NCBI GenBank assembly: GCA_012729815.1
Contig: JAAYCJ010000242.1
Span: 1-49,698, forward strand
Reading direction: 5' to 3'
Length of the DNA: 49,698 nucleotides
DNA from: Phycisphaerae bacterium
GTDB taxonomy: Bacteria; Planctomycetota; Phycisphaerae; JAAYCJ01
Numbering within the stretch: position 1 is the first letter of the stretch; the number at the start of each line of letters is the position of its first letter. Positions 44,619 to 46,710 of the stretch are shown in pieces. The position numbers and the translations under genes were made by a program. The notes under the pieces are model-generated. The model was given only the letters and a program-made list of their open reading frames with translations, was not told the origin of the DNA and did no database searches.

Positions 44619-44659
44619 AAGGTTGCATCGGGGTAGATGATGCTGTATAATGCAACCTT
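44619..44659 (+). promoter_or_regulatory. Promoter framed by a perfect 10-bp inverted repeat
   Basis: TTGCAT (44623-44628), 17-bp spacer, TATAAT (44646-44651). AAGGTTGCAT (44619-44628) and ATGCAACCTT (44650-44659) are exact reverse complements whose centres are 31 bp apart, i.e. three helical turns. The left arm covers the -35 and the right arm covers the end of the -10 and the expected start point. No U tract follows, so it is not a terminator. The remaining leader (44660-44857) has no gene. Confidence 0.6.
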
Positions 44660-44857
44660 AACGTCCGGGGGGTAAACCGGCGCGTACGAGCTGTCGCCGC
44701 CAAGTGAAAGGAGGATCACGGGTGATCAATGCCGGAGGATTCTCTTAGCTGCGTGGAGGCGTAGACGTTGCGCGCGGGATGGATGTGGATACCATCGCTG
44801 AGACGTGCGGTGCGGCTCGGCGGGCCAGGGAATGGTGTTACTCACAAGGAGAGAGCG

Positions 44858-45145
44858 ATGGAGAGCAAGTGGATCATGTTGCTGTTCGCGGGGCTGTTCG
44901 CCGTGAGCGTGATGGGCATGCCGGCGACGGTTCTGGCTGACGATTGGGGCGAAGACGACGGATGGTTCAACGGGGAGGACGAATGGGATAACGGCTGGGG
45001 CGATACCGGCTGGGGCGAAGAGGAGTACGGCGAGGACGACTGGTGGGATGATGATTACGGCGACGACTGGTACGACTGGGACAGCGACTACTATACCGAG
45101 GACTGGTACAACGAGGATGAAGGCTGGTTCAACGACTGGTGGTGA
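44858..45145 (+). CDS. Small secreted acidic Asp/Glu/Trp-rich protein, no basic residues in mature part
   Basis: The protein has 95 aa; AAGGAGAG precedes the ATG at 6-8 nt. A good signal peptide (MLLFAGLFAVSVMGMPATVL, cleavage after ADA-like VLA) leaves a 68-residue mature chain composed of 20 Asp, 10 Glu, 13 Trp, 6 Tyr, 10 Gly, 4 Asn, 2 Phe, 2 Thr and 1 Ser by my count, with no Lys, Arg, His or Cys at all. Short units such as DDWGEDDGW, GWGDTGWGEEEYG and DWYDWDSDYY alternate acids and aromatics. It cannot fold as a normal globule; cation binding or coacervation with basic polymers is likely. I know no family. The following Gln/Arg-rich secreted protein starts 77 bp downstream, probably in the same transcript. 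Confidence 0.8.
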   Translation: MESKWIMLLFAGLFAVSVMGMPATVLADDWGEDDGWFNGEDEWDNGWGDTGWGEEEYGEDDWWDDDYGDDWYDWDSDYYTEDWYNEDEGWFNDWW

Positions 45146-45222: not shown

Positions 45223-46710
45223 ATGAGGACGAGAGTATTGGGATTGATGATGATTGGTCTGGCGCTGGCGGTGTTTGTGGGCGTTTTGCCGGCGAACGCC
45301 GACCAGCAGGACCAGTACGGCCAGCAGGATGAATACGGCCAGCAGGGACAACAGGATCGCGGCCAATCGCAGGACAACGGGGACTGGCAGCAGCGAAGCC
45401 GGCAGGACGAGTACGATCAGCAGGACGATTACGGACAGGACGATCAGGACCAGGGTCAAGGCCAGGACCCGAACCAGCGCTGGAGGCAGGATCGCGGCCA
45501 GGGTCAACAGCAAGGCGATCAGTGGCAAGGCGATCAGGGCCGTGCCCAGCGGATCCAGTGGCAACAGGGCGGCCAGCAGGACCAGTGGCAGGAGAACGGC
45601 TGGGGCCAGCAGGGCGGCCAGGACTGGCAGCAGCGAAATCAACAACAGCGCAGTCAGCAGGGCAGCCAGACTCAGCGTCAGAGCCGCTGGCAACTCCAGC
45701 CCCAGGGCTGGGTGCTGGTCGGATACGATTGGGACCAGGATGGGACGTTTGACGCCTATGAGTACCTCTCGATGGACGATCTACAGCGGGCCCGCCGCCA
45801 GAGCCGGCAGCGGATGCAGCAGGGCCAGGCCCAGGGCGGCCAGCAGTTCCGTTCCGGCCTTCAAGCTGCGCAGCAGGGCCGCCAGATGAGGCAGGCGCAG
45901 CAGCGCCGGCAGACTCGCATCACCGGCCAGATCCAGGACATCACCCGCAAGTCGCTGATGGGCCTGGAGGGCCGGCAGGTGTTTGCCAAGATCCAGACGC
46001 AGCAGGGCCGGACGGTCCGCACGCTGCTAGGGCCGCAGCAGAATCTGCAACAGTTGGATCTCCAGGAGGGCGACCAGGTGACGGTGATCGGCCGTCGCGG
46101 AACCATCAACGACCGCTCGGTCCTGATCGCCCAGCGGATCCAGTCCAACGGTCAGTCGGTGCAGGTCCAGTCGCAGGCCCTGCGGCAGGCCCAGCTCAAG
46201 CGCTACTCGGGCACGATCCAGCAGACGCGGACGATTTCGATCCAGGGCCAGGACCAGTCGTTCCTGGTGGCCAAGGTCCAGCTTGACCAGCAGGGTCAGA
46301 CCGTTCCGGTGATCTTCGGTCCGCGACAGGAACTGGGAACCTCGCTGAACCAGGGCCAGCAGATTTCGATCCTGGCCAGCACCGGTCAACTGAACAACAA
46401 GCGGGTGCTGGTGGCCAACCAGTTCAGCAAGAACGGCCAGAAGTTCGACACCACGTTCAGCGACATGGGAAGCCGGCGGTTCAATTTCCAGACCTCCGGC
46501 GGCCAGCAGTTCCGCCAGAGCGCCCAGCAGGGCGGGAGCGGCCAGGGCTCTGAGTCTCAGCAGCAATCCGGTCGGAGTTGGAGCCAGCAGGATTCTCAGT
46601 CGCAGCAACGCTCGAGCCAACAGGACTGGGGCCAACAGGGCTCACCGTCTCAGCAGCGATCGCAGCAACCGCAGCGTTCGGGACAGCAGAGGGGGCAAGA
46701 CGATTACTGA
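45223..46710 (+). CDS. Secreted glutamine/arginine-rich protein with duplicated OB-like domain
   Basis: The protein has 495 aa; AGGGGG lies 6 nt before ATG 45223. The signal peptide is MMIGLALAVFVGVLPANA. After it comes a Gln/Asp/Gly low-complexity region (QDQYGQQDEYGQQ and the like), then a DWDQDGTFDAYEYLSMDDL element that looks like a calcium-binding EF-hand loop. Two related domains follow: ITGQIQDITRKSLMG to LIAQRIQSNGQ, and YSGTIQQTRTISIQG to VLVANQFSKNGQ, each with a GPxQ..LQ..L..G(D/Q)Q(V/I) stretch. These small beta modules resemble the OB-like BOF type. The C-terminus is again Gln/Ser-rich. It is basic and hydrophilic, a likely partner of the acidic protein upstream. Function is unknown; a matrix or sheath role is inference. 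Confidence 0.78.
   Translation: MRTRVLGLMMIGLALAVFVGVLPANADQQDQYGQQDEYGQQGQQDRGQSQDNGDWQQRSRQDEYDQQDDYGQDDQDQGQGQDPNQRWRQDRGQGQQQGDQWQGDQGRAQRIQWQQGGQQDQWQENGWGQQGGQDWQQRNQQQRSQQGSQTQRQSRWQLQPQGWVLVGYDWDQDGTFDAYEYLSMDDLQRARRQSRQRMQQGQAQGGQQFRSGLQAAQQGRQMRQAQQRRQTRITGQIQDITRKSLMGLEGRQVFAKIQTQQGRTVRTLLGPQQNLQQLDLQEGDQVTVIGRRGTINDRSVLIAQRIQSNGQSVQVQSQALRQAQLKRYSGTIQQTRTISIQGQDQSFLVAKVQLDQQGQTVPVIFGPRQELGTSLNQGQQISILASTGQLNNKRVLVANQFSKNGQKFDTTFSDMGSRRFNFQTSGGQQFRQSAQQGGSGQGSESQQQSGRSWSQQDSQSQQRSSQQDWGQQGSPSQQRSQQPQRSGQQRGQDDY

Follow-up and report, generated by a model that had tools for sequence, protein, structure and literature searches.

A secreted acidic, Trp-rich protein encoded beside an OB-fold protein gene in a Phycisphaerae bacterium, and its relatives in planctomycetes

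The acidic gene and its product

The window, i.e., the whole stretch of 49,698 nt analysed here from a Phycisphaerae bacterium (contig JAAYCJ010000242.1), carries a short frame coding for a chain so acidic and so rich in Trp that two questions arise: whether it is a gene at all, and what such a product could do. The frame (44858..45145, + strand) starts with ATG at 44858, ends with a stop codon at 45143-45145, and codes for 95 aa, reading MESKWIMLLFAGLFAVSVMGMPATVLA followed by DDWGEDD...FNDWW. Residues 1-27 form a signal peptide, and the mature chain, if cleaved after VLA, is DDWGEDDGWFNGEDEWDNGWGDTGWGEEEYGEDDWWDDDYGDDWYDWDSDYYTEDWYNEDEGWFNDWW, 68 aa long, with D20, E10, W13, Y6, G10, and N4, no K, R, H, or C, and a net charge of about -30 at pH 7. 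The Shine-Dalgarno region CACAAGGAGAGAGCG (44844..44857, + strand) lies directly 5' of the ATG, with its core AAGGAGAG a few bases from the start codon. The translation agrees with the initial annotation, which had described a 68-residue mature chain of 30 acidic residues, 13 Trp, and no basic residue behind a clean signal peptide and SD. GC3 of the gene is 0.84, similar to adjacent genes, and a sequence search identified a single copy in its own genome. The antisense frame opposite the gene is also open; as a gene it was rejected, being a V/L/I-rich mirror of a D/E-rich gene, with an equal mirror opposite the homologues.

The annotation had named no described family of this composition, and neither the protein nor its relatives matched any Pfam or NCBIfam model above cut-off. 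No plain homologue was found in nearly 400 genomes of its class, where weak compositional matches (e.g., DxDxDG repeat proteins) were rejected on inspection, nor in a further contig search or in plasmids; the one PDB match was a meaningless low-complexity one. A profile built from four acidic proteins recovered nothing else in 392 genomes of the phylum. Because the acidic proteins are too divergent for HMMER, the neighbouring OB-fold partner was used as the search anchor. The initial annotation overlooked this partner gene, the family to which the pair belongs, and the C-terminal signature of that family.

The OB-fold partner and the gene pair in relatives

The partner gene (45223..46710, + strand) starts 77 nt 3' of the acidic gene on the same strand, no terminator-like site was found between them, and the two are probably co-transcribed. 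Its product of 495 aa has a signal peptide, a Gln/Arg/Gly-rich low-complexity stretch, an EF-hand-like calcium loop, two OB folds, and a Q/R/S-rich tail, and the mature chain has a pI of 9.75. The loop DWDQDGTFDAYE (residues 169-180; 45727..45762, + strand) is a canonical EF-hand loop within the segment GWVLVGYDWDQDGTFDAYE. An AlphaFold2 model of residues 158-419, computed from a 12-sequence alignment, has a mean pLDDT of 78.5 and consists of an N-terminal hairpin with a helix and tandem OB folds (model residues ~70-154 and 167-248; 45901..46449, + strand). In this predicted model the first OB fold is most similar to PriB/SSB (Z 11.1, 82 residues, 2.0 A) and the second to RPA14 (Z 9.3), and thus the OB fold typical of SSB and PriB was recognized in the partner, with no SSB or PriB profile among its Pfam and NCBIfam matches. 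The WGxxGxxG family (NF041742) was dismissed for the partner itself (E 0.2, below cut-off); one relative was matched weakly (E 0.00046). The partner was not found in viral contigs. The idea that the acidic and the Q-rich gene are duplicates was rejected after a repeat scan, as they have only short codon-level repeats in common. The same genome also encodes elsewhere (contig C37, L036:7365-8795, - strand) a secreted protein that combines two PRC-barrel-like parts with a single OB repeat akin to those of the partner; it has no acidic neighbour.

Such OB folds might suggest that the acidic protein mimics nucleic acid, filling the OB groove in trans as a removable cover, a part played in cis by the acidic tip of SSB, and that the partner binds extracellular or imported nucleic acid. 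The likeness of the predicted folds to PriB/SSB and RPA, the Q/G/R-rich linker adjoining them, and the acidic-aromatic C-terminus, for which SSB is a precedent, are in line with this. This explanation nevertheless seems rather improbable, given that the ligands of OB folds are diverse, that a function cannot be read from a common fold, that the partner is a secreted protein, and that the conserved surroundings include no nuclease or uptake gene.

A search with the partner revealed relatives in its own class, several of which run from a signal peptide through an acidic-aromatic segment into the same repeats, all in one chain. A stand-alone acidic protein next to a secreted R/Q-rich OB protein was found in Candidatus Laterigemmans baculatus (L054), Roseimaritima sediminicola (L056), and Planctomycetota MAG LB_PLM_3 (L052), the last with the gene order of the pair reversed. 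The acidic proteins of L056 and L052 end in YYTSDWYDDNGVFDGWYDAF and WYYTDDWYDDESDFDLWYDS, respectively, compared with DYYTEDWYNEDEGWFNDWW in the window. A profile of the OB partner only then recovered seven strongly matching relatives from other parts of the phylum (L082-L088), and afterwards five new genomes in one family (L108-L112). These 12 OB relatives, from Pirellulaceae and a sister family, were fetched by OB sequence alone, and every one of them has an upstream neighbour on the same strand of secreted acidic/aromatic character; the 12 genomes represent fewer than 12 independent events, since some are congeneric close relatives. Directly upstream at L082, L084, L085, L086, and L088 lies an acidic/aromatic secreted protein, at L087 a less acidic one terminating in YYTNDDWWDWD, and at L083 a frameshifted one.

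The stand-alone proteins have in common a C-terminal signature YYTxD(D)W[WY], present, or replaced by a close variant, in 11 of the 12 upstream neighbours. Of the five genomes from the second search, L112 has a protein terminating in the variant YYDDNWWDWD, and the other four carry the signature as predicted (YYTADDWWD, YFTADEWWD). In L083 the signature reads YFTDRWWDW in a frame other than that of the signal peptide, and L088 has a loose form only (YYSNDAFDNDGLFDEWYD), with a charged extension after it. Among the 3174 ORFs in the fetched loci, a strict regular expression for the signature matched eight, each being the acidic partner gene. Likewise, strict acidic-aromatic limits, applied to small ORFs in 580 kb of fetched loci, were passed by nine, again in every case the acidic partner gene. 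In the window, the C-terminal part DSDYYTEDWYNEDEGWFNDWW (45080..45142, + strand) includes YYTEDWYN (45089-45112, + strand), which conforms to the signature. Of 200,000 shuffles that kept the composition, 726 scored as high, so that the observed sequence outscores 99.6% of them (p of about 0.004 when taken alone). The window protein also has the signal peptide followed by an acidic-aromatic chain and the same-strand adjacency to a gene of the split OB clade that mark the stand-alone family. It is tied to the family only through position, composition, secretion signal, and this signature, and among the members found it is the smallest and the most Trp-dense.

Between close species pairs, dN/dS of the acidic homologues is 0.10-0.25, and on these ratios the homologues are under purifying selection. 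The possibility that the frame is not translated, which the annotation had itself raised, is contradicted by the conserved gene pair, the signature, and the purifying selection in homologues. Since homologues in other genera occupy the corresponding position next to this partner and carry the C-terminal signature with such dN/dS values, the acidic gene is not a product of chance, and it is confirmed as a real gene rather than an oddity of a single genome. If the ORF were spurious, or an artefact of composition in GC-rich DNA, this would account for the lack of any homologue in a plain search of nearly 400 class genomes; in view of the SD, the signal peptide, the normal GC3, and the conservation just described, such an explanation is extremely improbable. 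A two-gene acidic/OB family of planctomycetes, with homologues adjoining the OB partner at L052, L054, L056, L082-L088, and L108-L112, is well supported. The acidic-OB link is strong and not absolute, because L093 and L094, two OB relatives from a single genome belonging to the class of the window, have no acidic neighbour. Besides the pair itself, no neighbours are kept across lineages, and for this reason the metal-ATPase, MscS, and oxidoreductase genes nearby were not used in considering function. No description of such a gene pair was found in the literature.

Several loci have features of their own. The acidic gene at L083:7117-7800 (- strand) is broken by a frame change, either a sequencing error or a broken gene. 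The partner at L054:5764-6966 has one OB domain, a PDZ-like region, and a long R/Q/E-rich tail in place of two OB folds. A Gly/Tyr-rich secreted protein (GYGYDGYDDYGYDGY...) is encoded at L052:7034-7371, directly after the OB gene and acidic gene, and a Tyr/Gly-rich secreted ORF at about 4900-5333 of L089 precedes a related OB gene.

Fused homologues and possible roles of the pair

The single-chain relatives constitute a secreted family spread across PVC bacteria (L038-L051 and L053), found by profile search and marked by the motif Y[YH]xEDxWYD[IP][TS]EWFDGND, DxDxDG loops, two to four OB repeats, and a signal peptide. Hosts are Rhodopirellula, Roseiconus, Botrimarina, Aeoliella, Phycisphaerae MAGs, and some Verrucomicrobiota, e.g., Pelagicoccus. 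No Pfam or NCBIfam model covers the family, of which this is a first description. Several paralogues per genome occur; L040 and L041 come, together with L052, from one MAG. The string WYDPSDWFD is identical in stand-alone L054, L056, and L086 and in fused L050 and L053, and thus ties the stand-alone and fused modules by sequence. The refuting condition named in the annotation, that the protein prove to vary an acidic repeat family already known, does not hold for any named family, although the window protein does belong to a wider, unnamed one.

The window pair and the fused family have in common the acidic-aromatic module predicted as disordered, the calcium-type loop, the tandem OB folds, and the secretion signal. 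In contrast to the fused chains, which carry acidic module and OB repeats together, the window has two genes 77 nt apart, and in the OB-domain tree the split partners form one clade and the fused proteins another (support 100/100). The window protein lacks WYDPSDWFD and the broader motif WYD[IP][TS][ED]WF, as do several other stand-alone members; its MAFFT alignment to the fused N-terminal motif was ambiguous, and no match is claimed. In the model of a fused relative, the acidic module (first 62 residues) has pLDDT below 50 and is predicted to be disordered, with the loops and OB folds ordered. From its composition and from this module, the window acidic protein is probably disordered too.

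The pair most likely works together outside the cytoplasm, as the two genes are encoded side by side, both with export signals, and are fused elsewhere. Of the roles suggested in the initial annotation, the best fit is electrostatic pairing with basic polymers, since in most pairs the conserved secreted neighbour is basic and the fused chains join acidic and mostly basic halves: the first 135 residues of fused chains have a net charge of -21 to -39, and the remainder is net positive in 10 of 11. The reading we favour, tentatively, is that the acidic chain is the disordered, polyanionic-aromatic member of a secreted two-protein module, binding the OB protein either in the periplasm or extracellularly. 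Asp and Glu would pair with Arg and Lys of the OB half and of the low-complexity tail, Trp and Tyr would contribute cation-pi contacts, and the conserved aromatic-acidic C-terminus could be the peptide that docks, in the way the acidic SSB tip docks on OB folds. The pair might then condense into an envelope or matrix complex, which Ca2+ may tune via the EF-hand-like loop of the partner. Physical binding, docking, condensation, and Ca2+ tuning are all inferred. The main internal objection to the binding model is the little charge complementarity in pairs such as those at L086 and L087, where the partner has a net charge of -7 and -5, respectively; in most pairs it is basic.

Bacterial SSB combines an OB fold, a disordered linker, Q/G-rich in the E. 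coli protein, and an acidic tip with a terminal aromatic residue. The partner OB folds resemble SSB/PriB, a Q/G-rich linker is present, and the terminal peptide of the acidic protein is acidic-aromatic. Unlike cytoplasmic SSB, the window pair is exported, its acidic part is a separate protein (an N-terminal module in the fused homologues), and SSB has no sequence relationship to the partner, so that the likeness is one of working principle, not of membership. The C-terminal peptide of SSB and ssDNA are competitors for the OB fold, and condensation is supported by contacts between OB fold and peptide (PMC11947617). By analogy, the pair might be a split, exported SSB-like system in which tandem OB folds with a Q/R-rich linker operate beyond the cytoplasm and a dedicated micro-protein provides the acidic-aromatic tip in trans, gating the binding of a ligand, perhaps a nucleic acid, and driving condensation at the envelope; we regard this as improbable.

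Cation binding, also suggested earlier, is possible, with the reservation that the only canonical EF-hand loop sits in the partner. As a calcium or metal buffer, the acidic protein would bind Ca2+ or other cations loosely through its 30 carboxylates, whether at the surface or in the periplasm, with the partner sensing or sharing that calcium by its EF-hand-like loop. The zero bases of the acidic chain and the DxDxDG loop kept in the partner and the fused forms speak for such a role. The acidic protein itself, however, has no DxDxDG loop, its 13 Trp are unexplained by cation binding, the conserved feature is an aromatic C-terminal signature and not spaced carboxylates, and several homologues (L084, L087) have many K and R, so a buffer is unlikely. 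Lanmodulin and other small periplasmic EF-hand proteins are likewise small, secreted, and acidic, and differ from the window protein, which has no EF-hand loop, a very high Trp content, and a homologous fused module predicted to be disordered.

The third suggestion, biomineral control, received no specific support. More broadly, the acidic-aromatic chains may be a surface material of planctomycetes (matrix, holdfast, or biomineral protein) cross-linked by the OB protein, which would suit secreted, disordered, low-complexity chains and the Gly/Tyr-rich proteins encoded beside OB genes at L052 and L089. Against this, the OB partner had a match in 13 of the 170 Pirellulaceae genomes searched and is missing from most; this rarity contrasts with holdfast and matrix, given as typical planctomycete traits in the taxonomic descriptions found. 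Acidic biomineral and Asp-rich matrix proteins are also polyanionic, low-complexity, and secreted, and the window protein differs from them in being Trp-rich, OB-partnered, and conserved at its aromatic C-terminus. A matrix function is thus of low probability.

What seemed an orphan curiosity has become a two-gene module that can be defined and that carries a linear signature, and its occurrence in cultured genera and MAGs (Roseimaritima, Candidatus Laterigemmans) makes it testable. Should the two proteins bind each other, they would form a natural exported couple of a polyanion and an OB-fold protein, useful in studying how the unusual envelope and the surface material of planctomycetes are constructed, and would offer condensate research a minimal chain rich in Trp.

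The region upstream of the pair

A probable promoter/operator, TTGCAT-17 nt-TATAAT (44619..44659, + strand), lies upstream, enclosed in a perfect 10-bp inverted repeat (AAGGTTGCAT/ATGCAACCTT) with a 21-nt spacer. The element occurs only once in the genome and looks like a putative operator over the promoter of the gene pair. A consensus promoter scan omitted it because its -35 matches only 3/6 positions. No Rfam match was obtained on the region. The leader of about 200 nt 5' of the acidic gene also includes, at 44704-44749, a mini-ORF (GTG ATC AAT GCC GGA GGA TTC TCT TAG) preceded by the very strong SD-like sequence GAAAGGAGGATCAC.
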